A stretch of DNA of 64,000 bases from Liolophura sinensis (taxonomy: Eukaryota; Mollusca; Polyplacophora; Chitonida; Chitonidae): assembly GCF_032854445.1 (NCBI RefSeq), contig NC_088295.1, positions 15,923,385 through 15,987,384 of the forward strand, written 5' to 3'. The position numbers and the translations under genes were made by a program. Under the pieces are notes generated by a model that was given only the letters and a program-made list of their open reading frames with translations, was not told where the DNA came from and ran no database searches. Of the stretch, positions 23,015 to 64,000 are shown in pieces (the first letter of the stretch is position 1; each line of letters opens with the position of its first letter).

Positions 23015-23214
23015 NNNNNNNNNNNNNNNNNNNNNNNNNNNNNNNNNNNNNNNNNNNNNNNNNNNNNNNNNNNNNNNNNNNNNNNNNNNNNNNNNNNNNN
23101 NNNNNNNNNNNNNNNNNNNNNNNNNNNNNNNNNNNNNNNNNNNNNNNNNNNNNNNNNNNNNNNNNNNNNNNNNNNNNNNNNNNNNNNNNNNNNNNNNNNN
23201 NNNNNNNNNNNNNN
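23015..23214. other. Assembly gap (200 N)
   Basis: Exactly 200 N, the usual placeholder for a gap of unknown size. Sequence of unknown length, possibly including GET4 exons, is missing here. Confidence 0.99.
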
Positions 23215-41300: not shown

Positions 41301-44300
41301 GTTTCAATAACTTTACTCTATGTTATTAAAGACAACAGAAAAAACATGCCTTGTATGCGAGAAAGACAAGGGGGAAAATTCAAATTCTTCAGTTGTCATA
41401 AATTCAGGGAAAAAAAAAAGATTTAGTTTATTTTAAGCATTGTCCAGTGAGATGGCATTTTCTCATTCCCATAAACCTTCAACATGGCTAATGAATTTAT
41501 CACTGACTCTGATATTAGTTATTTAGCGACTGCACTAAACGCTGACATGAACAACAGAAATTGTATTTGTATAACATCGTGTCTAAGTAGGGGAGATGTC
41601 TACTGGGGAGATGTATGCAGTTTGGGTCGAGACAGTAGGCCTATGCTGCTGTATGACATACATGTAGTTTGTGATACCGTCATTATAGATTACACGGCTT
41701 GTAAATCAACTGATTTTACGTCTGCGGTGATACAGGCCTGTCCCACAACACAGTGTGAAATGGCCCTTGGGCTACACATAAATAAATAGTTGTAAGCGAT
41801 CGCAAAATGTCTTATGCACTAGTTCTGTGTTATCATATGTCACATTATGGAATGTATGGATATAGGCTATGTCACAGCGTAGGTTGATCAACCTGATAGC
41901 AACATGTTTGATTGGATAAAATTCTCAAGATGGCTGCCTTGATCAGCTCCAGCCATTTGTGCAGTATTGACATTTTGTTGTACATGTTTTTTGGTGAAAT
42001 CTGATTAAAATGATAAAGTATTGTACTTTACTTTTTAGAAAGCTTGAATATAATCCTTTCGATGGAAGTATGTCTTAGCCAGATGCAGTCTTGTCCTTTA
42101 ACATACAAGTGGTTAAACACAAGTGTGATGGGGAATTTAGTCAGGGGTTTAGTCACCTCTGCTGTCTATTTAATGATTCTTCATACAAAAGCCAGTGTGT
42201 GCAGCCTCGTTTCATTGGTTGACATAGCTTGTACATTTAACGTCGCGGGAAATTCCCCAAGTTGGCCTACAACAGAGAATGAACCTGTGTTAATCAGCAG
42301 CTGGGACAAGCATGGCAAGGTATCGACATGAGCATGATTATCCATGCTGCTAAAGGGCTATGTTAAACTCCATACCGTTATTAGAATTATGTACTGCAGT
42401 AATTTGGTTATGTAATACTGAAGTGTGTATAGAGTTCAACGGAGGGTAAAATGTGATGAATTTTGATTAATTCAGAAAGCTCATTACCATTGGAATTTCA
42501 TACTACATTTGAAACTTAACCGATAGGTGCATCGCTAGACATACATGTACTGTATTTCATGTGAAATTTGGTACGTAAAAATGCACATTAGCTATAGGCT
42601 GATAATTTTGGTGCCAAAAGTTTGGTATATAGGATATAAAATTAATCAAATTTAAAAACTGTAAGTTGCCCTATGAGAATTATGAACTCTTCAGAATCAA
42701 GCAAATTGTGTCACTTGAAAGATGCTGAACTAGGTGAAATACAGTGACAACATCTGATTTGCAGTTATGTTCCTGAAAATGTGCAAAGATGGCTACAGTT
42801 AAGTAGTTGCACTGATTTAAGTTGTTTTTGCACATGTAGTTGCCATCTGTAATTCCATTGAAAGACTGTGGATCTGTATATTACTGGTACTGTGATAAAA
42901 GATGGGGTCTTCATGGTTACAAATAAAGCATTGCAGTCTTGTCATCTGTAATGCTTTCATGGATCACTTATGTTGATTTTGATAGATTCAGAAGAGACTT
43001 AAGATATTTTGATGATGTTCAGTAATAACTTCAATTTAGCAAAATTTTGAAACAAATATCAGAACCCTTCAGTCAGCCATGAAACTAAACATTGCACAGA
43101 CAAGCTTATTACACAAAGAATGTTTTCTCGATATGTATTTTTATGTCCTTGTACATGTATGCTGTAAAACCTGTTCACTTGCTTTACAATTTCTCATTGT
43201 TAGCCTGTTCAGTGGGTTTAGTGCATTGCAACATGATAAAATGATGAGACCAGCATATTTTCTCATTTGAGAAAGGTTTGTGTGTACGCCTAAGTTCCAG
43301 AAAGCTATGCAGGATTTAAAGCAGACAGTCGTGTCAAACTCAAAAGTAAATCTCCACAACGAACAATGTGCTCAACGTTCTCCACGAGATGTTAGTTTTC
43401 AGACACTAGGATACACCAGTGTCTGTGTGTGTGTGCCACCACCCACAGCCATGGAGAATACCTACCGTGATATTTGTCTTCTTGACATTCTCGAGTGTTT
43501 GCCATGAAGAGGATGTAGCAAGGGGTTAAAAATGGTCTCTTTGGTTACTATACTGCAAGTTCTGCTTCTGTATGGCACAAAGTCATCCTAATATCGCTCC
43601 CAAATGTCTGATGTCAATTCCCCAAGAACCGTCTGTCTGCAGCGTTAAAGTATCATCGAAGGGTTAGTTTCTGACATATACATGTACCTATGATTTCGTG
43701 AAGAGAGAAGCTAATGCTGTGGAATAAAAAATATCATGAGAACTGCTAGCAACATATCCACAGAAACACTTAAGATTTATACTATATACTGCCAGCAATT
43801 GAAGCACAAAGTAATAAACTCTTGCCCTCTAATGTAGGCCCTACATTTGGATTTAGCCTATATCAACAACGGTTTTATCAACTTTTGACCCAAAGACGGT
43901 AGTTGTTAACAATTTTGTACATACCAACAAATGGTTAGACAGGTAAAAAATAATGTACCTGTCGAATAGGCAGGTTACCACAGAAAAAATAATACTGCAA
44001 CTCCTGCTATCAAAGTGTAAGGAATGAAAAATACAGAATAACATTGTCATTGAGTTATTGAAATAATTAACCCCATACAGGTTGATGCGAAATAAATGTA
44101 TTAACTTCACTCAGATTCATTCCTCTTGCGGAAGAGCTGAAATAATTACTTTATTCTAGAATGTCTTTGGACAATTCATATGTAGGCCTACATCAACTTA
44201 TATACCAGATAGTCCTGTATAACTACAAAGGAAAGAATCTCTAGGTCAGCCTATGTACATGTGTACATGTATGCACATGTAGGCCTAGGGCCCTATGTCT

Positions 44301-47300
44301 TTTTGTTCGCCCCCTTTCCTACACTCGATCAACATCACACTTTCCAGGTGTATTACTGGTGACCCAAAATAGTGAAGTATTAAGTATTTTTAAAAAAATG
44401 TGTTTTGCGGTACTGCTTTTTGGTAGTACAGTACTCCCTCTCTTTCATAGTTAGGAGTACCATGTACTCCTCTGACAAAAATTATCCATAGAACTGATCA
44501 CGAATGGGGAACGAGTTGAAAGCAAGTAGTTATTCTAAATGTACGCATCATGGAAGAAGAATAAACAGGATTATGTAGGGTATTTATTGGTGCAAAATTT
44601 TCCTATCCTGACTAAGAACCCCTAAAAATTCTATCCCTCAAGGCTGTCATGTACTTGTTGTAGTGTTAATGCAAGCTTGTATCATATCTTCGAACTTGAA
44701 AGGTTTAGCTGGGTGTACAAAAATGTGAGAATCTTATTTATATTGCATGTCACCTAATATTCAACCATTACTAACTTACTTCTTGATCTTAAAGTGTATT
44801 GACCGGCCGCGATAGCACAGTTGGTAGAGCATCCGCTTCGAGAGCGGCAGATCCAGGGTCATTCCTGGGTCAAGTCACACCTAAGACCTTAAAAGAGGAA
44901 GTTGTCGCTTGGCGTTCAGCATGAAGGGGATAAGGCAACGATTGGTTGACCCGTATCAGTATAATGGCTTGGGTGGGGCAGCTTACTTGCCTTCGGTAAG
45001 GCATCTCAGTGAAGCAGCACTAGATAAAAGACGGGTGGAAAACCGTCCTGCAACAAGGAGGCACATTACATGGACTCTAAGGATTCCTTCGTCGTCATAT
45101 GACTGAAAAATTGTTAAGTAAACCCCAAGCACTCACTCACTCCTAAAGTGTTTTGAGAGTTCTTCTGAAAACTGTAAGTTTCCACACTGAAAGTGATCTT
45201 TTTGGTTCTTATTTTGGCTTTAAAATACTTTTTTGCGCAAATTTTATGGCAAACACAGTAAATTTTTTTGAATTCAGTTTTGTTAAAGTTATAATTTGAT
45301 CAGCCAGTTGTAAAGATCCAGTGTAAGTCATGTTGCTTTGTGTTTTAAAGGTTTTTTTTTTGGCTATCAGGGTCACATCATGCTTTTGAAATGTAACCCA
45401 CAAAATTCATTCTGTATATTATCATGAGAAATGTTGTGTATCTGTTCACAGCTGACACCTGTACATTATCTGAAGATGAGGATGATATGGTGCCAGACTC
45501 TGGGGAAGGCCTCAGTGTCTCTGCCACACCCCAGTTCAAGAGCAGTTCTGGCTTCACCCCTACTCCTGGGGGCCCATTCTCTGCCCTCACCCCCTCCATG
45601 TGGCCTCAGGATATCCTTTCTAGACTAAGCAATCCGGTATGCAATTTTAAATAACATGGGATATGTAAAATTATGCAGAAATTGAATGCATAGATGTGTA
45701 CAGAAATCTACTTGTTGCTGTTGAACATTTAATACTGCACAACTAACATTGCACTGCTTTACTGAAAATAAAAGGCAAAAAAATATTTAAATGATACATT
45801 TTCATAAGTGTAAGAGTACACCAAAAAAGACGATCACGAAACATGACCATTGGAAAGTGTTTCATTCATAGCATGATCAGTTATGTTGTATGTGGACAAA
45901 ATGGTGTGATTCTTTCAATTTTGCTGGTTTTGGTAGCCTGAAGATGCGAAAGGCCAGCTGGACTACAGATATGATGAGTTTGGGTTTAAGGTAGAAGAAG
46001 AAGGTAAGAAAATTTATTTAACTGGACAATAACATACATATATCCGTGCAGTTTGCCTTATGTTAGATCTAGAATTTGAGCATTAATCTTGATTATGACA
46101 TATTTGTTTTATACTACATATTTTGTTTTTATGACTTGTTGATGAAACCAATATATTTATCATATGTTTTGGGTGTTCTCATGTAGATGGTCCAGAAGAA
46201 AACTCCAGTAAGTTGTTGAGCACACCTTTTGTAGAGGACCCACAGCATAGGTTGAAATGGACAGCTTACCTGGAATTTACTCACAACAATGAGGTGGGGG
46301 ACCTCACATGGGATAAGGTAAAATGTTCAGGGGTCACTGGTGATTCATTCAGTGTATACTTTTCTTCACACACTCTAAATGACCTAAAATTTTGCCCACA
46401 AACATGCACTTTTAGAGGCACTTAAATGTCACAAAATACTATTTTTGGTGTTGAAACTTATAATTTTCCAGCAGAATATCATCTCATGTTCCAAACAAAG
46501 CGCCGCCGTCGTATAAGTGAAATATTCTTGAGTACGGCGTAAAACACCAATCAATCCAAACAAAGCTGTAAACACCTTTCTAAAATCAGTAGAACTCTCA
46601 GAATGAGGAAATATGGGCAAATCAGTAGTCATGGACAAAATTTATGATCATTTAGGGTAATCCCACAAAGCCCCTGCTTTTCAGCATTATTTTCATGTTA
46701 TTGTAAGCCTAGCTACACTTTTTTTTTAGACAGGTGCTGTTCCTTAACCCTAAAGTGTTAACCCTGGTGCAGTTTTTGTCTGGCACAGTGTTACATAGCT
46801 TTTATGAGGAATGTACTTTTGCAGCCTGCTCCTTTCAATTTCTAACTAGTGTCTATGTATAATGCCATTGACCAACAGTAAATCTGACAAATGTACATGT
46901 ATCTTCAAGAAATTTTTCTACCTTTGACTTCTGTTCCAAGATTTAAGATTTTGTACTGATTTTTATCATTCATTTTACAGGTGGAAATGAGATTGCCCAG
47001 GTCAGAGAAGCTTAGAGGCATGATCAAACAGGGGATTCCCCATTCCCTGCGGCCTCAACTATGGCTGAGGTTATCAGGGGCCCTGGAGAAGAAACACAAA
47101 TCCGACCTGACCTACAAAGATATCGTCAAAGCCAGTGCTAATGATCATCTCATGACTTCCAAACAAATTGAAAAGGTTAGCCTTATGATCTCCTAGAAAT
47201 GCTTCGGAATTTTGATCTATAATAATGAAACAAGCTTACATGTATACCTTAGCTTTATTCCACACTGTGCTCCAAGGACGTATCAACTTTCATGCTACCT

Positions 47301-50300
47301 TAAGATACGTACGTTCAGCATTTGTGATAATTTTATTTACATTTAATAAGATACATAGGAGTTAACAAGTAAGTTGATCATAATTGTAGAATGTGGAGTG
47401 GTTTAACTTCGTCCTGGCAAAATGACAGATGTGTACTATATTGTTCCTAATTGCGAATACAATGTTTTACGCTTTATGCTCTCTCTATTCTTCCCTGCAG
47501 GACCTGCTGAGAACAATGCCGAGTAATGCATGCTTCTGTAACATAAATAGCACAGGAATACCTAGGTTAAGACGAATACTGAGAGGATTAGCCTGGCTCT
47601 ACCCGGACATTGGCTACTGTCAGGGAACAGGAATGGTCAGTATGTTCATGTACAAATTTTCAAGGATATTTTTCCATGTTGTTAACAATGAAAGCATTAT
47701 AATGCCATATGGTGAAATTTTCCAAGTATTGTTTTTAGCTGCATTTTGTTACTTGACTACATTTGTGTACCTGTGCCTGATGCTGTGACAGTTTCTGGCA
47801 GCTTGTACAAGCTTAATATAATGTACATGACTGATTGTTTTGTTTGTCATGCTAGATTGCAGCCTCATTACTATTACTGATGGAGGAGGAAGATACCTTC
47901 TGGATGATGTGTGCAATAATAGAGGACTTGTTACCTGCCTCTTACTACTCCAGTACTCTTATTGGTATACAGGTAAAGAGCACTAACAAACACCGTCAGG
48001 AAAACATTCAGCATACACGTGTTTCTATCTCATTGTCTTTCATATTGTGGATGACGAGCATGATATTTATATTAGTCTGCAGTGAAGCAATATCACTGTT
48101 TAACTGAATGCAGCTGACAGTTGTGGGGCTGTTTGCTCTGTCTTATGTTTGCTGATAAGCAACAATATGCAACGATGCAAATCTGTACATACAAGAGATT
48201 GGTGGTTTACTTTGGACTTGCCAGTTTGCTCCACCCATAATCATGACCGCTATCATATTAGTATATTATTATAGATAACACAACAGTCAAATTTAATAAT
48301 AAAAAATTTGTTATTAGTTACATGTATGTTGTGTGTTTCAGGCTGATCAGAGAGTATTGCGCCAACTGCTGATCAGCTACCTCCCAGATATTGATTTAAT
48401 TCTCAAGGAACATGACATTGGTAAGTTTTCAGTGCCTATTTATGTCTTATTAGCTTATTAGCCAGACGGATTGCGTTGTGAGACATTTAGCACCCCATTT
48501 TTAAAGAACTAACAGCTGAAATTTGCAATTTGTAATCCTATTTACAAAGCTAATGCTTTAAGGTGGACGAGGATTATACACATAAATTGCTATTGCAAAT
48601 ATCTGTTGCTCATGCATTAAAATGGTTATGTTGAAATTATATTCATTCACCTATTTTATCCATAGAAAAACAGATAAAAAAAAAGGAACAAAAAGAAAGA
48701 AGAAATAAGATGTGAAAAAGTGACCATTAGTATCTTATTTGTGGTTATTAAGGAATTGATTACAGTTTTAGCAATATTGCTTGAGTTGATATATTCGTCA
48801 GTAATATTATTTGTACGTAGTACGCTATAGGAATGTCGGTGCAGCATTATTGCTTGAGGAGTATTTATCATATAATATTACTTGAATTGTTCCATCATGA
48901 TAATCTGTGCAGCTTCCTTGTATGCATGTGTTTCAGTACTTCCATGCCTGCATGTTGTGTGTCCTGCTTCCCCCATTCCACTCACAAATACATGCCCACA
49001 CACATGCTCTAAATCTGTATGTGTGTGACTAACAGCCTGCTGCCTGCATGGTGTTTTCCAGAGCTCTCCCTTATCAGCCTTCACTGGTTCCTGACAATAT
49101 TTGCCAGTGTGGTTCACATGAAGGTTTTGCTCCGGATCTGGGACATGTTTTTCTACGAGGGTTCTGTCATTCTCTTCCAGATGACAATGGGCATGTTAAA
49201 AATGAAAGTAAGTTAGGCAGGTTTATTTTTGAGAAGCTAGAGAGCGGGTTCTGGCAAGTGGTTGTAAAGATGCTCGCTTTTAAATGGCTAGAGCACACCA
49301 AATGCAGCTTTTAAAGACAGGAAATTTGTGGATTTCTTCACTTTTACTGTCCCTGTGTATTCGAGTGGCTGTGGATTCAAATGTTTGTTGAGGACCACTT
49401 ATCTTCCTCCGATGTGGTGTGCCTATATATATGTCAGAAAGTTTGCCTGTAAGTTGCCAAAGGTCATTGGTATACCCTGGGCATTTGTTTTTCTCCATCA
49501 ATTAAAACTATAGTGAAGAATTCTTTAGATTGACATTTAACTAGAATCAAAGGATTAAATACATTTTTGAGAAGCCATGGTTAACTTTTATTATCCCCAA
49601 ATTGATGACAACAGTTGAAATGTGCTTTCCATAGAATTTAAGATTCATGTAACTCCCAGTTTTTTCTTCACATAATCTTTGTTTACTTTGAATGACGTGC
49701 TTACAGTAATATTCTGTCAGAGGGTAATATTTCAGAGTTTCCTGACAGGTTTGTATATTTTTACCTACTAAGTACAGATGATGTAGTAGATTGTTTGCGT
49801 GTTTGTTAATGAAGGAGGATGACTTGACTATGATGGACAACTCTGCTCAGATCTTCAATGCCCTGTCCGACGTCCCAGGAGATGTACAGGATGTGGAGGA
49901 TCTCATAGAGGTCTGAACATGCATTATAACACACTAAAACAATGTTGTTTGTTTTTGTGCAGACTTATCTCCCCTTATTTCAATCAGCCAATAACAAAGT
50001 CTGAGGTGATGAATATTGTGTACGTTTTCTTCATACACTGAGTTTCACCTGCCCCACCACAAGAAGACACAGTATATGTTCCTAACACCTAATGACTCCT
50101 CCTCGTCATTTGACCAAAATATTTTTAAGTACAACCAAAACATACATACATACATACACTAGGTTTGTAGTGCTCACATTGTGTAAACCGCTGCTAATGT
50201 TTTCTTTGTTGATCCCCAGGTGTCTTACCGTGTGGCCGGATCCCTGACTGATGTGATCGTGGACTCACATCGAAGGAAGCATCTGGCCTACTTAATGGCT

Positions 50301-53300
50301 GATCAAGGAGCAATAGTAAATCCAGAGTCAACAAAGAACTTGCCAAAGCAGGTGAAAAAATATGCTTCCATGCCACCTTCTTGACACATACATCAAAACA
50401 TATGGCCTTGTTTAATCATTCACTATGTTTATCATCACAGATAGATGTATCACAGTGTAGTTCACAATCTGATAGTCATTTAGAATTTACCAAAATTGTT
50501 GGTGTTTTACAACTAATGAGGCAATTTGTTTCACATGTTTTGGTGAGTAAATATTCTTGGTATTCTTTGTGAACAGCAATTGAACAAACGCCATTTGCGG
50601 CGGTCACGGTCTGTCCTGTCCTTGTTGTTGTGGGGAGAGGCAGAAGATGAGGACTTTGGTAAAGCTAAGAACATTCGACAGACAGAGATCTTGGTAGACA
50701 TGAGGGAGGCCATACTACAGGTTGCTAGACACTTCCAGTCTGTTGATCCTAAAAACAACAAAGTAGTAAGTAACATTTCTGCTGTGTGGTCATGCTAAAA
50801 ATCATATAATATAAACATGACACAATGGAAGAAGGTGGCATTTAATGGTGCTTAGCTAATGTAAATGAATTTAAAAGCTAATTCCAGTATTTACGTGTCA
50901 GAATTCTTTCTATATGATTATGTATATGCAAGTTTAATGTCACCCTCTTTTGATATTTATGTAAAAAATCTTGCCTATTGTGAGCAGAAAAACTGCTAAT
51001 GACAAGCTGTTGGCATGTTGTTTTCTCTGGTCTCAATGAATGCTTGGTGGTGAGTAATGTACACAGGGTGTGCCATCCTGTCCGCCAGTTCCTGCCATTG
51101 TCTTGTTGTCTGTTGTAGAACTTACAAGCTGACTACACTATGGACAGCCACGCCAAGGATCTGGAGAACTACCTCAACGTTGCCAGAAACAGGAGGCGGA
51201 GGGCTAAAGCCTTACTGGACTTTGAGCGGCATGATGATGATGAGCTGGGCTTCAGAAAAAATGACATTATAACTGTAAGTGTACAAAGGGGATCACCTCC
51301 TTGTGCAGTGGAACTATTGAACTCCAATGCATACATACACTGGAAATTTGAATATACAGACATGTTTGCTCTCCTATGTGTATAGAAAAAGCTGAGTATA
51401 CTGACATATTGTCAATGCTAATTGTTTTCAGTGGTCCCAGTCATTATCAGTTTTTGCACCTCTGACTATAGCTGCTTTGAGTTAAGATAGTTTCTTTCTT
51501 TTCATGAATTGACAAGTTTCATCGATGTTGTAATTACCCTATTTCTTCTAATTATTGGGACACTTTTGGGTTTCCTTTTTTTCACATGGGTAGACCATCT
51601 ATTGGACAACGTAATCATATCTTTACTTTTCCAAAATGCTGAAAATGTAATATTCTGCTTTCAGCAAAAAAATTAGAGCAATTAGGGTATATGACTTTTC
51701 AGTGTAGTGTTATGCTTGATGCTGAATCGATTTATGTACATAATTTTTTACACGAATGAAAACTTTTGAATGCATCTCAGGGCTATATGATGGTTTTACT
51801 TGTGATTTTTGTCCAGATAATATCGATGAAGGATGAACACTGTTGGGTGGGAGAACTGAATGGCTTGAGAGGATGGTTTCCTGCTAAGTTTGTAGAACCT
51901 CTGGATGAGAGAAGTAAACATTATACGTCAGCAGGGGATGATTCTATCACAGAAACTATCACAGATCTGGTTAGGGGAACGTAAGTCTGTGTGATAACAC
52001 TGATACAGTTGTTCATTTCCAGCTATGTTTTCTGCTTCAGAGCTGACAACCACTGTCATAGAATTCAAGATGAAGGGGACTTGTTTAAAGGATACAAAAT
52101 CAATGCTGATTGGCTGAGAGTGGAGAAAGGATATCCTAGATAAACCTGCTGGTCACATTCAAATAAATCTGCCACTGATAAAATTCAACTTGGTCTTGGT
52201 GTATAGTTTGAACTTGCTTGTTTCCCACGTCAGCCAGTTGGCCATTCTGTATCCCTGTAAATGTTTACAGCCTAGAGTTATTTAGTGGATCTGGTGCCGT
52301 TCTGAAACTACAGTATGTACAATAGTGCGCAGTACAGCTGGATTCTAGGTGAATATCCTATGCCCTCCTTGCCTGCACGGTCTGCGTATGGTGGGTCGGC
52401 ATTGGTCAGATGGTGTTCGATTATCCATACACCATCAGCGTAGGATCCAGTCAGGATGCACGTACCATATTACCATCATGGTAGCATCGTGGACGTATGA
52501 TCGCCATGTTTTTTTACAACGTTAAATCAAGTACATATATAGATGTACCTTTTGCTACAACAGCTATGCACTTAACATATAAACAATTTTGCGCATATAC
52601 TGTGAAAGTTCTGGAGCCATATCAGCATTTATCAGTGGTAATCAGATGTGAAGCAGTATTAATATGCATGAGTCTATATGCCTGTGTAGTTTGTCACTAA
52701 AAGGACATCCTGTTTCTGCCTGTGCCTATGTACCTTGTACAACATCAGCATGAAAACCATACAACAATGTAACTGTTCAGATGCCTGCAGATTATCTACC
52801 GTACCTAAAGATGACATCACTGCATCTTTCTCCTTATGTTTAGAAATATGTATACTAATGGAAAAAAGTAACTGTGCATCACAGAAAATGGGACAAAACA
52901 AAAGATGTTTGAAAAGTTATAAACCTAACCGTCAATAAACATTTAGCCAAGCATTTTTCATGAAATGTCATGTCACGTATCGCGCGTGGCACGTGCACTT
53001 CGTGTATAATGACATGACTCACATCCTGCATGATGTTTGACACATGAAGTTCACACACCTGATTTCGAAAATTGAAGAACTGTTGATTATTCTTTAGCCT
53101 CTAAATGTTGTGGAAAACACGTTAACTTCAACATAAATTGTGCGTACAACATGCCACGGCTTACAGAAAATCAGCGTCTCCGCGCCGTGGGTATGCTGGA
53201 GACTGGAATGGCCCAGAATGAAGTTGCCAGACATTTTGGTGTCCATCGAAACACGATATCCTCTCTATGGCGACGTTTTCAACAGAATGGGAACACGAGA

Positions 53301-56300
53301 GATTTGCCCCGGTCCGGCCGTCCACGTGTGACGTCACGTCAGCAAGACAACCATATTCGGCTGACCCATCTAAGGAATCGATTCCAGAGTTCCAGTTTGA
53401 CTGCTCGGACCATTCCTGACTTACGCCCAATCAGTTCCAGGACTGTACGGAACCGACTGCGGGAGCGCAACATCCGGCCCAGACGTCCTGCCATACGTCC
53501 GATTTTGCTCCAACGTCACCGACAGGCACGTCTTGTCTGGTGCAGACAACATCTACGGTACAGGAGACAAGATTGGGATGGTGTTCTGTTCACTGACGAG
53601 TCGAGATTTCATCTGGACGGCTCAGATGGCAGGGCAAGGGTGTACAGACGTCCTGGTGAACAGTATGCTGACGCGTGCGTTGTTCAACGTCGAGCGTTTG
53701 GTGGCGGCAGCGTTATGGTATGGGGAGGCATCACATCTCATGGGCGGACCCAACTTGTCATTGTGAATGGCAATCTGACAGGCCTGCGATACAGGGACGA
53801 GATCATTCTGCCTCATGTGCAAGCGTTCATTCAAGGACATGGACGTAACATCACACTTCAGCAAGATAATGCCCGTCCACATGTCGCTCGTGTTGTGACG
53901 GATTTCTTGAGACAGCACAACATTCCGGTACTCCCTTGGCCAGCAGTTTCTCCTGACCTGTCCCCTATCGAGCATGCATGGGATGAAATGGAACGGCGAT
54001 TACGTCAGGACCCGAATCAGCCATTGACGTTAGCTGATTTGGGACAAATGTTGCTTCAGACATGGAACAACATTCCCCAAGCTTTCTTCACTCGCTTAGT
54101 GTCGTCTATGCGTCGTCGTTGTCAAGCCTGCATCAGCGCCAGTGGTGGACACACACGATATTGAGTTTGTGAACTGACTTTTGACACCACATCTCTTCGA
54201 GGGCGTATCATGATGCCTAGTGTCAAATCATAAAAATTTCGAGATTATCCTGTCAACAGTTAAACAGTGATTAAACAGAATACCAAATATCATATTCTTA
54301 TCTTAATTCATTAGAGCATGGCATAACTGCAGATGATGCACAGTTACTTTATTCCAGTAGTATAGTTATAAGCTAATGTTGCCAGTGGACATGTATAGGA
54401 ATAACATGTCTTGTGTTTTCTGTTTGTGAACAGTTTGTGCCCAGCTTTGAAGGCAGTATTTGAACATGGACTGAAGAGGTCTAATCTGTTAGGGAGCAGT
54501 TGTCATCCCTGGCTTTTTCTTGAGGAGGTGAGACATAAGTTTGTGCTCTGCTCTCTTTTGTTTCCAGGATGTAATGGAAGTTTAGCTATATGTGTTGAAA
54601 ATAGAAAGCTTGGTTATTTTGTGTTGATATCTTGTCTGTTTTGGTCATGCTCAATATTTCTATTAAACAGGCAGCCACTAGAGAGGTGGAGAAAGATTTT
54701 CAATCAGTGTACTCAAGACTGGTACTGTGTAAAACTTACAGGTTAGTATCTCCCCATGGATCAACTGTGGCATGCATTTGGTGTGAGGTGTGTGTACGGT
54801 GTATTCCAACACATCTGTAAAATGCATACTACATTACACAGAGAATAGAGACATCAACTGCATTTATCAGACGGTATATGCAGTGAATTTTTTCAGGCGA
54901 CTCAACAGTGTTGTTGAAGAGTAACAGCATAGCATCCAACAGGGTTGTTACAGGGAGGATAGGTTGGTACTGCATACAGTTAAAACATATGAAAACAAAC
55001 TATATAACGTCATCAACATGAAGCGGTGCAATCTCTATGTAGGTCAGCATGTTTAACTTGAAGGCGGATTTCTTACACTCGGTGACAGATCTATGTACAA
55101 TTAGCAGCTACGAAATATAAACAACGAAAAGCACAGCAAAATTCTACATACACATTAATTTATTTACTTTAGTTTTCCATCGAAATTTTGACGATCATGT
55201 CCAGTCAGAAATGTCCAGCCTTTATCATTTTATGTTTCAAATAAAAAAGTCTTTTCCAACGCCGACATAAAAACTCTATCTCTTTTTCCGATATTTGTAT
55301 GACACTCTGAGCACTCATATATCTGGTGACGGGACAAGTCTATCTCTTTTTCCGATATTTGTATGACACTCTGAGCACTCATATATCTGGTGACGGGACA
55401 AGTAAGTGTCGGATATATCCAAGTCTTCAGGACGTCCTCTCGGGCTTCATGTTTTCAGTGACAGCACCAAGCAGTTGAGCTGGCCAAGAGTCCATAGCTG
55501 ATAACATCCTTCATATGCTACCAGCGTACGTGTGGACAGTTTACCAAGTGACCAGCGTACATGTGGACAGTTTACCAAGTGCATTCACTACTGCTGACTG
55601 CAGTAGATTCTTGCATAGCGCTTATCATCATCTGTCAATCTCTTCTTAGTTTTACTTCCACACCTCACCACTCAAATCTTCGCACAAAGACTTACTCTAG
55701 GAATGTCTGAAACTCCTCCAACAACCAGCGTGGACATATCACGTGCCAAATGCAGTATTCTCATTGGTTCTTGATGTTTTGCACCCTGTAGTTCTTTTAA
55801 GTGGACTCTTCCATGGAGCGATTTACGCAAGAGCAACGTAATCAAAATGAAGGGGTGAATAGGTATCAGTTTGCAAATCGAAAGGGATTAAAAACTGAAA
55901 ATTAGTGTACCGGTGATGTGTTAGAATAGAAATAATGGGCCGCAGGCTGAGTCCTAAAACAATGGACACTTCCTTTTGGACTGCAATTATCACAGTGTAT
56001 ACACAGTGAATGAAGCCGTTATTTCTTGAACTACATTCAGTATAAACATTTGCACACTTTTCACATCATTAACAGTTTTTTCTTTTTATTGATTGGGTCT
56101 ACAAAGGTATGACAGGCTGATATGGATATCTCTTTTGTTCTTATATGAACACCACTGTATTCATTAACTTTTTGTGTGTATCTGTATATTCTGTGTCTGT
56201 TTTAGATTGGATGAAGATGGTAAAGTTCTGACACCAGAGGAAATTCTTTATAGGGTAAGTTTACATACTATTCATTTTTATACAACCATTGAAAAGGTGT

Positions 56301-59300
56301 TTGGGTTGTGGGGGTGCATCTTACTGGCTCAGATGGTTAAAGTGCTGATTGACTGCTGCTATCAGGCCCTAGACCCGTGAGATCTAGTGTCCAAATCCAG
56401 CTCTGGCTTCAGCTGCAGCTGTAAGTAGGTAGGTTTGTCAATGTTCTGTGTTTTTTTGGTTTTTTTTGGTCACCCAGTTGAGCAACTCACTGCCATCATA
56501 AAAGTGAAAAATTGAGTAAGGTGTTAAACTCCCATCAGATAAATAAATAAGTGAGCAGCTCTATTATTATTATTATTACCAATGAGCAAGATTGTATCAA
56601 TATGTACAGTACAAGATGTTTTCATTAAAATATGTACATGTGTTGGTGGCATTTAGAAGCTGATAGTATACATAAATGTTTGTTGTGGTTGTTTACTCCA
56701 GTAACAAGAATGTTTACATTTGTGTTTATTTGTAAAAAAAATTAATAAAATAATTTTGATAAGTATCAGTGTCATCTATTGAATGTTAGTGTTAGGTGCT
56801 GAAATATTTATGGATGTGAAGACGCCTTTAATTTTGTTGCTCACATTTACCATTGCTCATCCCAGGCTGTACAGGCGGTGAACTTATCCCACGACTTGGC
56901 ACATGCTCAGATGGACGTCAAGTTCCGATCTCTGATCTGTTGTGGCCTCAAGTAAGTTCAGTATTATACTCAACTATCGCAGAAATGTGTAGCAGCAGTT
57001 TGGTGTTTTCTCCATTCCTGCTACATCAAATGCATTTTGGGGTGTTAAGTTAACTTAAGTATATTTAAATTGATCTTTTCAATGATAGTTAGCTTCTTCT
57101 GTATAGTTAAGTGACCTTGTCATTCCTAGTCTTACAACATTGAACTGCAAATCTCACAGAAAAAAAAAACAAATAGTGTTACTGAGCGAAGTGTATTGAA
57201 TGCATTGCTGTTTGCTAGATATAATCAGTTTGACTATTGGTCTGAAATGAGCCAGTGTGTACGATGTGGTTAGCTGCTTAGGATGTCTGTCCTGAAAAGG
57301 TCCAACAAAAAACTGCCATGGGTTGAACTGTAGGGCTTTTCCTGACTTCCTTGGGTATTGCGCTATCTGTACCTGTGTGCTGTGTTTGTAGTGAGCAAGT
57401 GTTACACCTGTGGCTGGAAATGTGCTCATGTGTGGAGGTGGTAGAGAAGTGTATTAATGTACCTGTGTGCTGTGTTTGTAGTGAGCAGGTGTTACACCTG
57501 TGTGTGGCTGGAAATGCTGTGCTCATGTGTGGAGGTGGTAGAGAAATGTATTAATGTACCTGTGTGCTGTGTTTGTATTGAGCAGGTGTTACACCTGTGT
57601 GTGGCTGGAAATGTTGTACTCATGTGTGGAGGTGGTAGAGAAATGTATTAATGTACCTGTGTGCTGTGTTTGTAGTGAGCAGGTGTTACACCTGTGGCTG
57701 GAGATGCTGTGCTCATGTGTGGAGGTGGTAGAGAAATGTACTGATGTACCTGTATGCTGTTTGTAGTGAGCAGGTGTTACACCTGTGTGTGGCTTGAGAC
57801 ATTGTGCTCATGTGTGGAGGTGGTACTGAAGTGTATTTATGTACCTGTGTGCTGTGTTTGTAGTGAGCAGGTGTTACACCTGTGTGTGGCTGGAAATGCT
57901 GTGCTCATGTGTGGAGGTGGTAGAGAAGTGTATTAATGTACCTGTGTGCTGTGTTTGTATTGAGCAGGTGTTACACCTGTGGATGGAGATGCTGTGCTCA
58001 TGTGTGGTGATTGAGAAGTGTATTGACGTACCTGTATGGTGTGTTTGTAGTGAGCAGGTGTTACACCTGTGGCTGGAGATGCTGTGCTCATGTGTGGAGG
58101 TGGTAGAGAAGTGTATTGATGTACTTGTATGGTGTGTTTGTAGTGAGCAGGTGTTACACCTGTGGCTGGAGACACTGTGCTCCTGTGTGGAGGTGGTGGA
58201 GAAGTGGTACCACCCCTGGTCTTTCATGAGGAGTCCAGGTTGGGTGCAGATCAAGTGTGAACTGAGGTAAGTGCAGCTTCAGCTCATCGTCTTCATAAAT
58301 ATCCTAGGAGAGCCTTAGAATTGCTGAGGTACTAGGTTGACTATTTGCCCATCTGATTTGTCTTTAACAGCTAGAGTAGTGATAAGGACACAACTTCATA
58401 GGTATGATAGCAGCTTAGAATGTGTGTTTTTAGCATCAGAGAAAGTGCCTCTTCCAACATGGTTTGGTTTCATGTTGAGATTTTATGGGACTAATCCATT
58501 ATCCTTTAAGGTATTACTGCAATGAAACGTAAAAAAAAATTGCTGCATTTTACATAAAATGATATTTGGATGCAATTTCTGGTATGGTTGTTTTCTTATG
58601 GTAAAACTGGCATTTGTTTCATGGTTATTTTGAACAGTCAAAATGTGTCGTAGCAATATTTGTGTAGTCTTTTGTATTGCAACTATTCTAAGGCTCTCAG
58701 ATGAAAGTGTAAAAAAAAAAAAACTGCTTGCTCACCCAACACTTTAACAGTTTGGCTGCTTTACTAATTAACCTGGCTGATACCTTGCTGTGTTCTATTG
58801 GTGGAGTGAGTGACAACTGTGACATACAAAGTGTAATGATGCTGATCAGTGGGTGTTTATAAATGTGATAAACCTTCTGACATGATTAAAAAGGAGTATT
58901 GACATTTTAAAGAAGACCAGATTGCTTGCATCTTGGTTTAAGTATTGCTTACCATCTACACCACTGACTGCTGGTTAACATAGGGTTATATCTTCATCTG
59001 GTGCAGTGTATCTCCGCTATCTCTGTTAACACTGCTTTCAGGGTTTTACGCTTTGCTTTTCAGCTTACTTCTGCATTTACTAACCATCTTCATTCTTCAT
59101 AATGTTCTGCTTTTCACAGGTTGTTGCATGTATATAGGTGGATAGTGAAGGAGGTGTGGCCAGTTAAGTGAATAATGACCAATGAATAACAAGAATAGAG
59201 GCGCACACTGTCACTTGTTCACCCATTGCAGGAAAACTTGCATAATTAACAGCTTGGCCTATCCATTATTATCTGCTTATTTGCTAAACTATGTGTGGAT

Positions 59301-61755
59301 TATCTGCTTTTTAACCTTTTCTGGTGTCTTCAAAAAGTAATAAATGATGTTTAAACTAAGCACCGGACTGGAAACTAATGCTTTCTGATCCATACACACA
59401 AAATTAGTTATTATTCTGTGTAATGCTTATTAAATAGTTATCTCTGGGGAACAGTTAACAAGATTATACCAAGAATAGAATGTATATCTTTACAATTATT
59501 CAGTATTTTAATAATTACTTTCGTCAATTAAGTTAAAACATTACTCTCTGAAGCTGGAAATCAACACCTTGTAAGGGAAACAGTGAGCAGTTGGTGTCAC
59601 AGTTTGGTTCTGTCTTTCAGGATTTTATCGCAGTTTGCCTTTAATTTGACGCTGGACTGGGAGCTACCTCTGAAGAAGCGGATGTTAGAAACAGTGACTG
59701 CTGGCGTTCAGGACATCTTAATCAAACATCACCTCTTTAGCTGGCAGCTCTGAAATTTTACAGATATCTCACCTCCTCAGCCTTACACAGTCTATCTCGT
59801 TTTAATTTATTATGTCCAATTTATATTTACAGATGCCATCATCGTGTACTTTATTGAAATCGAGTGATCTTATGCAGCAATATGAATATTGTGTTACATA
59901 TTTCTTCTCTGTTTGACTTTTACATGACATGGTAAATGTCTATATGTTGTGCTTATGTGTGTTTTTTGTTTTTAAATTAACACATTTTTTGCATTCTAAT
60001 TTGGAGTGCACAGATTGTTTTTGTTTTGTGGTGCTAGTGTATTTGTAAATTCATAGTGAAGTATGTTAAGAGTGTAATTTGATTTTGTGTGATTCTGTTG
60101 TGTCAGACTTTATGGATATGATTTACGTAGGAGGAGATAAATGTATTTATGAATGGGCAGTACATAGAGTTTATGATTGTTGTGACTTGTTCCAATTTGT
60201 GGCATGCCATATGTAAACAAACCCTCAGAAGTGACTGATGAGCACAGTGCTCAGTGATGATAATGCAATAGTCCCATTATGGTAAAGCAGAAGTGATTAC
60301 AGTTAGACATTGTCAAGAGCTCAGATTTGTTGAAGTTACATTCTGATACTGTGAAATACTACTTACATTTGCTTGTTTTGAAATGATAGTCTGAATTACA
60401 GATATTCATGGAAGATGTAACATTTTTACTGTTGACAATGTATAGCTGATTTTTTTTCTTTTGGGTAGTTTTAAGTGCAATACTATTATTCGTGTGTTGT
60501 TGTTGTCTATGTGGCTGGCAGTTGTGCCTGCGTGATGCCAGATTTCAAATCTAATCATCACATCTGTTTCTTTTCATTTTTCTCATGATTGTTTAATATT
60601 ACAGGCTTCTGTCTCAGTTTGGCTTCCATTTAACGACGGACTTTGAACTTCCCCGAAAAGCCCCTGTCCGAAGCCCCGGTGATCTAAAGGAAGGTGTTCG
60701 CGACATGCTGATTAAACATCACCTATTTAGCTGGGACATTTGAACCTGTTGTACAAGGCTGATATCTAAAGTTGTCTCCCTTGAGGTTGTTATTCTACTC
60801 ACGTCTGTTCAGCCCAGGGTGGATCTTTTCTGTAAATTTATTGACATCATGAAATCCACAGTTAAAGGTAGTTGGGTAAAGATATGTACTTAAAGATAGT
60901 ATTGGTTGTACTGGTAACTTGATATACACATTGTATTTCCAGGTAAAGAACACTCAGATAATCATGTAATAAGATTTCATTTGCAGTGGATATACAGAAG
61001 TAACCTGCAGTACTTCTGTGACAGACTGTAAGATCATGTACATATAAACAGTATGCAAAGATAGATTTGCAGATGTAACATTATTATAGTAGTAGGAAGG
61101 ATGAATCCAGCTCCAGAAATAGTTTTTCATTACAAAGAATATCCTTAGAGAAAAAGCCATAGACTTGGGGGTCATGAATATGTTTTTCTGACAACCATTA
61201 GCATGCCATGCCTCAGTATTTTCACCATAACAAAGAGGCACTTAGTCAGGGCTGATATATTGATGCCATGACTAGTTGCTGTATGGTCAACTTACAGTTC
61301 ATTGTCTTCAATTTTCTCTCTTTATCTCCATCAGGACCTTGGATGTGTATTTAGGCGTTGTTCTCTTTGTCTCCTTATATTTCTTTTTAAATGTGTATAC
61401 GGTTATCAGCCTGTTTGAGCAGTGGATACCTGTAACCAGAGTAACCACTGTGGCCGCCACAGTGACCAAGGAGGGATATCTGCTTATGAGGGCACCACTG
61501 ACCAGCACAACCACTGTAATCACTGACTGGCCTTTGAGCCATGTAACAGCCAGGTAACCTGACCTGCATAACCCATGCCTGCAGGCCAGTTATCATTGTT
61601 TGACTTGCTTCCTGTCTTGCAGACTGCTGTCTCAGTTTTCCTTTAACCTGTCCAAAGACTGGGAGATCCCCATCCAGCCAGCTGTGCTCAGACCTTTAAG
61701 GGATGGTGTGCGGGACATGCTGTGTAAACATCACCTGTTCAGCTGGGACCTGTAA
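38305..61755 (+). CDS. SGSM3: Small G protein signalling modulator 3 (TBC-SH3-RUN protein)
   Basis: A Rab GTPase-activating protein with TBC, SH3 and RUN domains. The coding exons are 38,305-38,371; 45,452-45,636; 45,937-46,003; 46,187-46,317; 46,981-47,175; 47,501-47,635; 47,856-47,972; 48,342-48,420; 49,062-49,207; 49,815-49,910; 50,220-50,351; 50,577-50,765; 51,119-51,274; 51,817-51,980; 54,434-54,527; 54,671-54,741; 56,206-56,254; 56,866-56,951; 58,144-58,266; then one of three last exons (59,621-59,753; 60,605-60,743; 61,623-61,755). All junction phases agree. The product is 804-806 residues; the human protein is ~750. TBC spans ~165-390 with catalytic IEKDLLR (Arg 219) and YCQG (Gln 256); SH3 ~542-597 ([17 protein letters not shown] ... 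[11 protein letters not shown]); RUN ~615 to the end. The start is CACCATGG; exon 1 (22 codons, [10 protein letters not shown]...) is the least certain part because it is far upstream and not conserved by my recollection. Confidence 0.95.
38372..45451 (+). other. SGSM3 intron 1 (7 kb)
   Basis: It begins with gtgaga and ends with tctgttcacag. Besides one family-B SINE (44,803-45,144) I recognise nothing coding. The open frames at 40,406-40,683 (minus), 41,484-41,789 and 42,044-42,331 have no known motif. A decayed zinc-knuckle-like peptide occurs at ~39,205-39,250. Confidence 0.6.
44803..45144 (+). mobile_element. tRNA-derived SINE, family B, with target-site duplication
   Basis: The head ccggccgcgatagcacagtt then ggtagagcatccgcttcgag looks like a tRNA 5' half. 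The body and (cact)n tail match the copy at 35,191. Flanking taaagtgt(a/t)ttga at 44,790 and 45,145 is the target-site duplication. It lies in SGSM3 intron 1. Confidence 0.94.
46500..46556 (+). mobile_element. SINE family A 3' fragment
   Basis: Only the tail is present: ccgccgtcgtataagtgaaa then tattcttgagtacggcgtaa and aacaccaatcaat. It lies in SGSM3 intron 4. Confidence 0.85.
46981..47635 (+). CDS. SGSM3: SGSM3 exons 5-6: TBC catalytic core
   Basis: Exon 5 (46,981-47,175, 65 codons) and exon 6 (47,501-47,635, 45 codons) encode the start of the TBC fold. Exon 5 carries [17 protein letters not shown] (TBC motif A, R--W--L type). The IxxDxxR arginine-finger motif is split by the intron as IEK | DLLR, and exon 6 ends with GYCQGTGM, which supplies the glutamine finger. 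Both catalytic residues are present, so the Rab-GAP should be active. Confidence 0.95.
48180..48305 (+). mobile_element. Degenerate SINE 3' fragment
   Basis: It contains ggtggtttactttggacttg, tttgctccacccataatcat, gaccgctatcatattagt and an AT-rich tail, similar to the element in DPH7 intron 6. It lies in SGSM3 intron 7. Confidence 0.5.
49240..49530 (+). mobile_element. Very degenerate SINE-like sequence
   Basis: It contains a gattcaaatgtttgttgagg-like B-box region and gttgccaaaggtcattggta with gggcatttgtttttctcc, resembling the SINEs at 36.3 and 48.2 kb. It lies in SGSM3 intron 9. Confidence 0.4.
50050..50158 (+). mobile_element. SINE family B 3' fragment
   Basis: The sequence cacctaatgactcctcctcg then tcatttgaccaaaatatttt resembles the 3' end of family B, but the tail has become (cata)n. 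It lies in SGSM3 intron 10. Confidence 0.6.
51119..51980 (+). CDS. SGSM3: SGSM3 exons 13-14: SH3 domain
   Basis: Exon 13 (51,119-51,274) ends in an Arg-rich linker ([16 protein letters not shown]) and the ALYDF-type strand of an SH3 domain with the acidic RT loop [11 protein letters not shown]. Exon 14 (51,817-51,980) supplies the Trp of the binding site ([19 protein letters not shown]) and the start of the RUN domain (DLVRGT). The exons join in phase 0. Confidence 0.95.
52855..54360 (+). mobile_element. Tc1-like DNA transposon, complete with TIRs
   Basis: A 1,506-bp element bounded by ~27-bp terminal inverted repeats: ctaatggaaaaaagtaactg... at 52,855 and the reverse complement of ctactggaataaagtaactg... 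ending at 54,360 (25 of 27 positions match). TA dinucleotides at 52,853-52,854 and 54,361-54,362 are the target duplication. It carries one intact transposase frame in the same direction as the host gene and sits in SGSM3 intron 14. A perfect 9-bp inverted repeat (gtcatgtca / tgacatgac, 52,967 and 53,010) lies in its 5' untranslated part. Confidence 0.93.
53151..54164 (+). CDS. Tc1/mariner-family transposase
   Basis: An uninterrupted 337-residue protein, the usual size for Tc1 transposases. The N-terminus holds two helix-turn-helix motifs: [20 protein letters not shown] with [19 protein letters not shown], and a GRPR AT-hook-like hinge ([13 protein letters not shown]). The catalytic DDE triad is visible: D in [16 protein letters not shown] in [15 protein letters not shown], and E in [17 protein letters not shown], with spacing consistent with DD34E. 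It cuts and pastes its own element at TA sites. No stop or frameshift, and base composition is clearly more GC-rich than the flanking intron, which suggests recent arrival. The ATG is in AACATGCC context, ~300 bp inside the left TIR. Confidence 0.96.
   Translation: MPRLTENQRLRAVGMLETGMAQNEVARHFGVHRNTISSLWRRFQQNGNTRDLPRSGRPRVTSRQQDNHIRLTHLRNRFQSSSLTARTIPDLRPISSRTVRNRLRERNIRPRRPAIRPILLQRHRQARLVWCRQHLRYRRQDWDGVLFTDESRFHLDGSDGRARVYRRPGEQYADACVVQRRAFGGGSVMVWGGITSHGRTQLVIVNGNLTGLRYRDEIILPHVQAFIQGHGRNITLQQDNARPHVARVVTDFLRQHNIPVLPWPAVSPDLSPIEHAWDEMERRLRQDPNQPLTLADLGQMLLQTWNNIPQAFFTRLVSSMRRRCQACISASGGHTRY
54434..56951 (+). CDS. SGSM3: SGSM3 exons 15-18: RUN domain, first half
   Basis: Exons 54,434-54,527, 54,671-54,741, 56,206-56,254 and 56,866-56,951 encode [64 protein letters not shown] and [20 protein letters not shown] followed by RSLICCGLN. 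They match the RUN domain of SGSM3, which binds Rap/Rab-type small GTPases. All junction phases close. Confidence 0.93.
55275..55402. repeat. Perfect 64-bp tandem duplication
   Basis: 55,275-55,338 and 55,339-55,402 are identical (tctatctctttttccgatat ... ggtgacgggacaag). A second, 31-bp near-perfect duplication (accagcgtac(g/a)tgtggacag...) follows at ~55,518-55,579. Both are in SGSM3 intron 16 in a stretch (54.9-55.8 kb) that resembles nothing else in the window. Confidence 0.95.
56309..56551 (+). mobile_element. Degenerate SINE, family A type
   Basis: It has tggggg... tactggctcagatggttaaa as head, ccaaatccagctctggcttc in the middle, and ctgccatcataaaagtgaaa, gagtaaggtgttaaactcc and agataaataaataa as tail. 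It lies in SGSM3 intron 17. Confidence 0.75.
57362..58203 (+). repeat. Exon-derived minisatellite: tandem copies of an SGSM3 splice acceptor plus half-exon
   Basis: Nine head-to-tail copies, the last being the real exon 19. Exon-equivalent starts are 57,392, 57,482, 57,579, 57,676, 57,767, 57,864, 57,961, 58,051 and 58,144, spaced 90-97 bp. Each unit has ~30 bases of intron end (gtacctgtgtgctgtgtttg then tag) and ~61 bases of exon 19 (tgagcaggtgttacacctgt ... gtggtagagaag). Copies 3 and 7 have lost the acceptor AG (gtat for gtag). Copies 2, 3, 5 and 6 carry a four-base gtgt insertion. The pentamer gtacc occurs in the intron end and in exon 19 just past the duplicated part, so slippage between the two could have started the array. 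Confidence 0.95.
58144..58266 (+). CDS. SGSM3: SGSM3 exon 19 (functional copy)
   Basis: This is the only copy that continues past the repeated part into the conserved RUN-domain segment [19 protein letters not shown] then KCELR and a consensus donor (ctgag then gtaagt). The first 20 codons ([15 protein letters not shown]...) are the part that has been multiplied upstream. It enters in phase 2 from exon 18 and leaves in phase 2, compatible with all three last exons. Confidence 0.95.
59621..59753 (+). CDS. SGSM3: SGSM3 alternative last exon a
   Basis: Acceptor tctgtctttcag; 133 bases including TGA. It encodes [20 protein letters not shown] ... [16 protein letters not shown], the last ~43 residues of the RUN domain. 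It has diverged from copies b and c (D-I-L and W-Q-L in place of D-M-L and W-D-I/L) but has no disabling mutation. I saw no AATAAA between it and copy b. Confidence 0.92.
60605..60743 (+). CDS. SGSM3: SGSM3 alternative last exon b
   Basis: Acceptor tttaatattacag; 139 bases including TGA. It encodes [20 protein letters not shown] ... [19 protein letters not shown]. The motif [18 protein letters not shown] is, from memory, the closest of the three to the vertebrate C-terminus. It is two codons longer than a and c in the variable linker. Intact, same phase as the other two. Confidence 0.93.
61623..61755 (+). CDS. SGSM3: SGSM3 alternative last exon c
   Basis: Acceptor cttcctgtcttgcag; 133 bases including TAA. 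It encodes [20 protein letters not shown] ... [19 protein letters not shown]. Intact and in the same phase. It is the only copy with a canonical AATAAA within ~300 bases downstream. Confidence 0.93.
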
Positions 61756-61796
61756 CCTGGCTGAGGACTGTGTCACCCTCTGTCATGTGTCCTAGC

Positions 61797-61863
61797 TTGT
61801 TCCCCCCCCCCCTCCCCCATGTACCCTGGCTTGTCACCCTCCCTCATGTGGGGGGGGGGGGGG
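61797..61863. repeat. Poly-C and poly-G tracts facing each other
   Basis: About 11 C, a T and five C at 61,802-61,818, then 14 G at 61,850-61,863, with ~30 bases between. They lie in the 3' UTR of last exon c if that transcript runs to the signal at 62,052. Degenerate ~30-bp repeats (cctcatgtaccctggcttgt) surround them and recur near 62,165-62,225. Confidence 0.9.
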
Positions 61864-62051
61864 TGGACAAATGCCCAGGCAGGCAAAGCCCTCTTAGGCA
61901 AAAATCCTGCTGGACAAAAGCTCTGCGAACAGTATTACGGCTATTTGATGAATATGTGGATATAGCATGTTTGAAGTAAACCTCAAATTTATGTTGAATA
62001 TATGTCAAATTGCCTCAAGTTTTACATAGTAGCAAATACTTGTTAACAATT

Positions 62052-62057
62052 AATAAA
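62052..62057 (+). terminator. Candidate poly(A) signal for SGSM3 (exon c form)
   Basis: AATAAA ~300 bases after the stop of last exon c. Confidence 0.5.
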
Positions 62058-62304
62058 TATCATTCTGAGGACATGTCTGGATACATTTTGTGGGTTAAAT
62101 AAGACCCTGGGGATATTGTCCAGCAGGGTTTTCATCTGTGGGATTTGTGCACAGGATGTTTGTCCTTGAGTCCCCTCATGTATCCTGGATTGTTACCCTC
62201 CCTCATGTACCCAAGCTTGTCACTATTTGAAGGATCACCTTGGTTTATCAACCTCTCCATTACGTACTTTCATAACTTTCTTAAAATTGTACCTCTTTCA
62301 TTAT

Positions 62305-62432
62305 AGAGATCTAGTTAGAAGTTCAACATGTAACTTGTAATTTCAGACTAGAATAGATACTAGTGAACTAATTTTGGTTTGAAATTACAAGTTACAAGTT
62401 GAACCTCTAGCGTTTAACTAATGGTCTCTACT
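62305..62432. repeat. Hairpin element, 25-bp stem
   Basis: gttcaacatgtaacttgtaa(tttca) at 62,321-62,345 pairs with tgaaattacaagttacaagt(tgaac) at 62,380-62,404 with one mismatch; the loop is ~34 bases. Weaker pairing continues outward (agagatctagtta against taactaatggtctct). The right flank reads cctctagcgtttaact. Confidence 0.85.
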
Positions 62433-64000
62433 TGCTGAAATGTGGCCTCACTTCTCAGCTACTCAGTATTCATTGGCTGCCATTCTCTACATGGGAGTGA
62501 AGTGTGATTTATCCCAAGCATAAGGCACACCAGGTGTGTTTTTAATCTTGCCTTGGACAAGAATTTTGTAAAATCACTGACTTCAGTTGATGACCACTTG
62601 TAACTAAGCCACACATGAGAAAATTCATCAACATGTTGCAAAAGATCTATGGTTGATCTATGGATACGCCAGGTTGATCTACTTATAACACTGACTGTCG
62701 GAATTTGTCGCAGATAAATCCATGTATAAGAGCTTGGCCCACTGTCATTCCCAGCATTTCAGCAATGGTATTCTAACTTGCCTTTTAGCACAAAAGTTTC
62801 AGGAATTCCATTGTCTATGGCTGAATGGTGTAGCTGTGGTAATGATTATGAATATATTTATCTTTCACATCTTCTATATTGTTTTTACTCTGCCTTATCT
62901 CTTCCTTATCTATCTAGCCTTCCCCTTGATATTCCTGGGAGCTGAAACCTTCCAGATGACTCTGTTGCCTCTTGCATTGTAACACAACTGTGTCTTTATC
63001 CTGTGTTCTTCCACTTCCCAGTAAAAACATACTTGTCACACTTAATTCCTTGTTTCCTACCAGAACATCACTTTGTCCCCCAGCATTGAAACTCTGTTCC
63101 TTTTCTTGAGAAAAATGTCATAAAATGATTACATCTGTCATAAATTCTATTGTCAAATGAAAATTGTTCAACAGCCATGCCGATTTTGCAAAACATTCTG
63201 GCAGAAAACAAGGAAGTGTATGTCATTGGCATTATATCCCTTGCACCCCTTGTCTATGGCTGGTAGCTCTCTGTGGAGTTAAGTGGTAGGCACGTGTTGT
63301 GCTGCCGTGTTGTTCAGTGATTTATTTCTAGCTGTGTTTAAAGGTATCTCTTTGTTGTGTTGTGTAATAGCTTATGTAATAGGCTACCAGATAAAGGTGA
63401 CCTTGTAAGGTCACATATCTTACTTATGTCTGAGTGAGTTTAAGTACAACTATTGTAGTATTACAATCTGATGCAAATCTGGTTAAATATAAATTAAATT
63501 TTGAGGTCTATTTTCAACAATTTCTGATATTTGCAGGTAGATATCAGAAATTGTTGAAAATAAGACTAGAGCGTTTAATTGAATTAATGCAGACCAGGCT
63601 TGTGTTACTCTTGTGGGGATGGAGTATTTAATCAGGCTCATTACTATCTCAAATAGCCCCACCATCCCTCCCAGGGATGTAGAATATCTCTTATATGTAA
63701 GTAAAACATAAATAATGTAGCACCCCCACCTTCTGTGATCAAGATATATAAATAGTTACCTTGTATATGTATGTATATATTGATAAAACATGACAGGATA
63801 TGAATCCAGTTGTTTTCATTGTGTCGTATAAATATTTGACCATACCGCTAAACCAAGGCAAAGGATCACTTGTCTTAAGTCAGTATGTGAATCACACCAG
63901 TGTAGCTGTATGTTAGAAATGAACTGAGAAGATAAGGTGTGGTAATCTGAACAGAGCATATGGCTCTTTTATTGCATTTCTGTACCTGTATATGCACATG
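62433..64000. other. Downstream of SGSM3; no gene recognised
   Basis: Apart from the hairpin at 63.5 kb, nothing was recognised. Open frames at 62,722-62,982 and 63,434-63,631 show no known domain, and the first is hydrophobic by composition only. Confidence 0.5.
63509..63562. repeat. Perfect hairpin, 22-bp stem, 10-base loop
   Basis: tattttcaacaatttctgat(at) at 63,509-63,530 is exactly complementary to 63,541-63,562; the loop is ttgcaggtag. Imperfect pairing extends to ~63,490 and ~63,585. The right flank gactagagcgtttaattgaa shares ctagagcgtttaa with the flank of the hairpin at 62.3 kb. The size and shape also resemble a microRNA precursor. Confidence 0.9.

Follow-up and report, generated by a model that had tools for sequence, protein, structure and literature searches.

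Three tandem, diverged candidate last exons in an SGSM3-like gene of Liolophura sinensis

An SGSM3-like gene of the polyplacophoran mollusc Liolophura sinensis ends in three homologous terminal exons, here called A, B and C, which lie in tandem behind a single last shared coding exon. The gene lies on the forward strand of a 64,000-nucleotide (nt) stretch of contig NC_088295.1 (positions 15,923,385 to 15,987,384; NCBI RefSeq assembly GCF_032854445.1), which we call the window and to which all coordinates refer. Judging from the genomic sequence, it is likely (probability about 0.8) that the last coding exon was duplicated in tandem and that purifying selection has since kept the copies as three alternative last exons. 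The last shared exon, exon 18 (58144–58266, 123 nt), is entered and left in phase 2; its 3′ end reads CTG-AG at 58266 and is followed by the donor gtaagt. The arginine codon split at this point is completed by each terminal exon. These are exon A (59621–59753, 133 nt including the stop codon TGA at 59751–59753) and exon B (60605–60743, 139 nt including TGA at 60741–60743), in both of which the acceptor AG is followed by G, and exon C (61623–61755, 133 nt including TAA at 61753–61755), in which it is followed by A. All three are on the plus strand and in the same phase, and each has its own acceptor and stop. A sequence-only reading of the window had proposed three intact, diverged terminal exons of SGSM3; re-reading the sequence returned the same coordinates, phase, acceptors, restored arginine and stops, and the proposal is borne out by homology, acceptors, frames and stops.

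Upstream of the terminal exons, 18 coding exons (45452–58266) join through GT-AG junctions into one stop-free open frame. The gene model starts at about 45,452; the 5′-most coding exon or exons were not located, and exon numbers count from there. The exon that the sequence-only reading had numbered 19 is thus the eighteenth in our model, and its number may still be right, given the unlocated 5′ end. In the 781-residue product, Pfam places a RabGAP-TBC domain at residues 149–355 (E 1.8e-50), an SH3 domain at 520–565 (SH3_1, E 7.1e-12) and a RUN domain at 597–750, which is the order found in SGSM3 (PMC11725557). The gene is accordingly described as SGSM3-like, a probable identity that rests on this domain order and on general similarity to SGSM3 rather than on a tree against SGSM1 and SGSM2. 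Exons 1–13 (45452–51980, plus strand), supported by the open frame, GT-AG junctions and Pfam matches, encode the TBC and SH3 domains. Exons 14–16 (54434–54527, 54671–54741 and 56206–56254, plus strand) encode the first part of RUN and are followed by exon 17 (56866–56951, plus strand), which ends in phase 2.

When exon C was used as a query against the 609-Mb assembly it matched itself, exon A (E 1.4e-11) and exon B (E 1.7e-10), followed by a fourth and last match at E 1.09. The values for A and B show that the homology of the three exons is not due to chance. No fourth terminal-exon copy was found in the assembly (four matches from four scored candidates; assembly-wide match counts are lower bounds, and parts of the assembly read as N). 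The molluscan haemocyanin family PF14830 (Haemocyan_bet_s) is represented in this assembly by eight above-cut-off matches clustered in about 11.5 kb of another contig, as against matches in 0 of 14 control genomes, in keeping with a mollusc source. Exon 18 was found at full length once, its seven other matches being five partial copies in a neighbouring array and two weak matches elsewhere in the assembly (E 0.2 and 5.5). Within the reach of these searches, therefore, the three terminal exons have one upstream partner. Apart from the partial exon 18 copies in the array, no second copy of any of exons 1–18 better than E 0.01 was seen within 44,001–64,000.

The three exons have diverged in a manner that points to selection on the encoded protein. 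Over 43 aligned codons, A and B differ at 19 amino acids, A and C at 19, and B and C at 16 (56–64% protein identity), and the nucleotide differences at codon positions 1/2/3 number 13/11/26, 19/8/24 and 12/7/22, respectively. By maximum likelihood the ratio of non-synonymous to synonymous change (dN/dS) is 0.12 for A-B (0.345/2.911), 0.11 for A-C (0.330/2.933) and 0.11 for B-C (0.236/2.136); LWL85 gave 0.18 for A-B and B-C, and NG86 gave 0.12 for B-C. The sequence-only reading had expected selection to hold this ratio down, and wherever a method returned a value it was indeed about 0.11–0.18 rather than near 1. Neutral simulations with equal counts of change (20,000 runs per pair) gave no more amino-acid differences than observed in 0.00015 of the runs for A-B, 0 for A-C and 0.0002 for B-C. 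Twenty of the 43 amino-acid columns are invariant, and 11 of these 20 carry synonymous differences. Outside the exons the copies no longer resemble one another: in BLASTN comparisons of the segments 59121–60104 (A), 60105–61122 (B) and 61123–62300 (C), nothing better than E 0.49 was obtained, and flanking similarity does not go beyond 11 nt on the acceptor side and 5 nt past the stop. The exons thus appear to have been kept while the intervening DNA turned over. Protein divergence of this extent, together with flanks that do not align, lies far past allelic divergence, and a collapse of haplotypes or a mis-join in the assembly is for this reason a very improbable source of the three copies; we found no support for such an artefact, the only run of N in the window being at 23015–23214.

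Several results weigh against the use of all three exons. Silent sites are saturated; no value was obtained from NG86 for A-B and A-C, from LWL85 for A-C or from YN00 for any pair. A per-branch test was restricted to codons that are the same in both other exons. Among 16 such codons, branch A shows five synonymous and two non-synonymous changes (P 0.007), while branches B and C each have two synonymous and one non-synonymous change in 12 codons (P 0.053 and 0.086, respectively). Constraint is clear for A alone; for B and C taken singly it is suggestive, on few codons. Low pairwise dN/dS is also compatible with a recent loss of use by one copy. Among potential acceptors, several other AGs within 58290–62300 score as high as those of the three exons, for example that at 60038 (10.7), and the intervals from the stop of A to exon B and from the stop of B to exon C contain neither AATAAA nor ATTAAA. 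Finally, no relative was confirmed in a prokaryotic contig collection (54 pattern matches, 0 confirmed) or a viral one (126 pattern matches, 0 confirmed), as expected for those collections.

A rival possibility is that one of the three exons, most probably C or A, is the only one used, and that the other two are intact non-functional relics. We regard this as improbable, though less so than an assembly artefact. The chance that equal numbers of random changes would leave no stop codon is 0.20–0.29 per pair, and the intactness of the exons is therefore weak evidence by itself; in addition, constraint on B and on C singly does not reach significance at 0.05. However, pairwise dN/dS is low in every comparison, whereas a pair of long-standing neutral relics would approach 1, and the flanks have diverged beyond alignment while the exons are conserved. 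The earlier proposal that selection has maintained all three exons is supported by pairwise dN/dS, by the non-aligning flanks and by the intact acceptors, frames and stops, but at the level of single branches support is clear for A only.

If the three exons do serve as alternative ends, the single donor at 58266 would be joined to the acceptor at 59621, 60605 or 61623, one per transcript. A matrix was built from the other 18 acceptors of the same gene, and scores were compared with the leave-one-out scores of those 18. Acceptor A scores 10.93, above all 18; acceptor C scores 8.16, above 14 of 18; and acceptor B scores 6.89, above 11 of 18. Given the equally high AGs nearby, these scores show that the three sites are adequate and nothing more. 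The acceptors might compete in transcripts that all share one 3′ end, or the choice might depend on alternative poly(A) sites. Under the former arrangement, exons downstream of the chosen one would become part of the 3′ untranslated region (UTR). We give this arrangement somewhat less than an even chance; it is a mode of the proposed three-exon switch, and its odds are not additional to it. From the stop of A to position 64000 there is a single AATAAA; it lies past C, at 62052–62057 (plus strand), 297 nt beyond the stop of that exon, and is a possible poly(A) signal not beyond chance expectation. One variant of the oyster AOX transcript likewise contains both copies of its duplicated exon 10 (PMC5589949). 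On the other hand, the chance of finding no AATAAA or ATTAAA behind A or B is 0.58–0.81, and the mean number expected behind C is 0.36, such that neither the absence behind A and B nor the presence behind C is remarkable. One-base variants of the signal also occur (GATAAA at 60136 and TATAAA at 61043), as does an ATTAAA within exon B at 60711. Competing RNA pairing was sought in a crude scan of docking segments starting at 58270–59275, in the intron that follows exon 18, against the 286 nt preceding each terminal exon. The best weakest-of-three value was −24.8, and 5 of 30 shuffles were as low, which lends such pairing no support.

Each terminal exon completes the RUN domain and then adds a tail. 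In the RUN construct, the part shared by all forms stops at residue 158 and the Pfam RUN match extends to residue 171; the first 13 residues of each terminal exon, arginine included, therefore fall within the Pfam model. Profile coverage is 1–130 of 131 with A, B or C and 1–116 of 131 without a terminal exon, and the score rises from 112.7 bits without one to 123.1–128.6 bits with each. The sequence-only reading had described the three exons as RUN-domain C-termini, which is apt for these first 13 residues, whereas the remaining 31 (A and C) or 33 (B) form a post-RUN tail. This tail contains a linker without any invariant residue (alignment columns 18–30; 11 residues in A and C, 13 in B), followed by a conserved end, GV.D.L.KHHLFSW, in which KHHLFSW is invariant. 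Exon A departs singly from the other two at seven positions, among them SWQ for SWD and VQD for VRD, and the other exons at four each. An AlphaFold model of the exon C peptide from a three-row alignment (mean predicted local distance difference test 56, predicted template modelling score 0.26) was uninterpretable beyond a possible helix at residues 22–35. In a PDB sequence search, the RUN construct ending in C matched Iporin (6if2, E 9.5e-06) and RUN and SH3 domain-containing protein 1 (4giw, E 0.0024), with weaker matches to 3cwz (E 0.11) and 8jc5 (E 0.18); the stretches of 4giw and 8jc5 that reach the terminal exon were not significant.

The resulting proteins would be identical through the TBC and SH3 domains and most of RUN and would differ in their last 44–46 residues. 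Binding of RAP and merlin has been assigned to the RUN domain of SGSM3 (PMC11725557), making an altered choice of partner plausible, and the tails may tune binding to partners such as RAP GTPases and merlin. GTPase specificity is reported not to follow from RUN features alone (PMC7431699). A bolder proposal is that the C-terminus of this protein is an ancient three-way switch that predates many mollusc families, with the RUN end and KHHLFSW tail exchanged according to tissue or condition and one GTPase-activating protein serving three sets of partners. This we consider doubtful, the one pointer to such an age being the saturated silent sites. Should all three exons be used, one Rab/Rap regulator gene would yield three proteins with a common TBC domain and different RUN ends, offering a natural swap experiment on what the C-terminal end of RUN and the KHHLFSW tail each do; mollusc examples such as oyster AOX would also be joined by a signalling gene with three copies.

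To our knowledge, SGSM3 of vertebrates has a single last exon. Our searches of the open-access PubMed Central literature turned up no report of alternative terminal exons of SGSM3, and the passages on SGSM3 in PMC10897204 and PMC5667991 mention none. Another kind of 3′ variation is on record for human SGSM3, where alternative polyadenylation of the 3′ UTR has been associated with the risk of breast cancer (PMC10897204). Vertebrate SGSM3 shares with the Liolophura gene the order TBC, SH3, RUN (PMC11725557). Last exons that are duplicated and alternatively spliced have been described before, and the SGSM3-like gene adds a clean three-way case to this class. The nearest parallel comes from another mollusc gene: in oyster AOX the terminal exon 10 is duplicated in tandem, the copies have their own stops and are reached by an alternative 3′ splice site, both forms are expressed, and a response to stress has been shown (PMC5589949). 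The AOX C-termini are 41 residues long and differ at 15 sites in C. virginica; unlike the SGSM3-like gene, AOX has two copies rather than three, part of its 3′ UTR is also duplicated, and its transcripts have been demonstrated (PMC5589949). Among 236 human tandem duplicated exon events, 77 exchange one C-terminus for another; three tandem 3′ exons, as here, are present in each of TPM1, lev-11 and Tm1, although these genes encode a different protein, tropomyosin, and their three exon sets apparently lack a common ancestor (PMC9741552). The main text of that survey, to which this statement is confined, has 0 mentions of SGSM3 (PMC9741552). Among insect serpins, the wasp gene PpSerpin-1 likewise has duplicated alternative C-terminal exons, of 44–50 residues, within one gene, but it encodes a serpin with 21 C-terminal forms, known from transcriptome data, and its alternative exons show accelerated protein evolution (PMC10513286). 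In Drosophila PGRP-LC and pip, alternative 3′ ends are also picked singly; there the choice is ascribed to competing RNA structures (PMC9013439), whereas the crude scan for such pairing in the Liolophura gene gave nothing beyond shuffled sequences.

The array next to exon 18 is a tandem repeat of period 97 (57368–58206, plus strand; 8.9 copies) built of this exon's acceptor and 5′ portion, and it ends in the real exon. The AG is kept in six of the eight upstream copies, and use of the acceptor at 58051 would add 93 nt (31 stop-free codons) to exon 18 in frame. The array is possibly a polymorphic one, and can be described as a variable number tandem repeat built of a splice acceptor within a coding gene. 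Elsewhere in the gene, the intron between exons 13 and 14 holds a 362-residue open frame (53076–54164, plus strand) with matches to DDE_3 and a Tc3-type helix-turn-helix, which by these matches is a Tc1/mariner-like transposase without a stop, and the intron between exons 15 and 16 contains a 64-bp tandem duplication (55275–55403, 100% matches). Two inverted repeats lie downstream of exon C, at 62316–62409 (arms of 39 nt, 87% complementary) and 63478–63593 (53 nt, 72% complementary). Upstream of the SGSM3-like gene, a match to the CDK2-associated protein family (PF09806, E 8.6e-23) lies at 28391–28759. There is probably a WD-repeat gene at about 32,000–36,700, presumably DPH7; a fragment at 35893–36102 resembles beta-propeller models with scores below their cut-offs. 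Near the start of the window is a 40-bp minisatellite of 49.5 copies (1672–3643), with a strong GC skew (0.319 over 1–4000), which gives minus-strand open frames of up to 410 residues.

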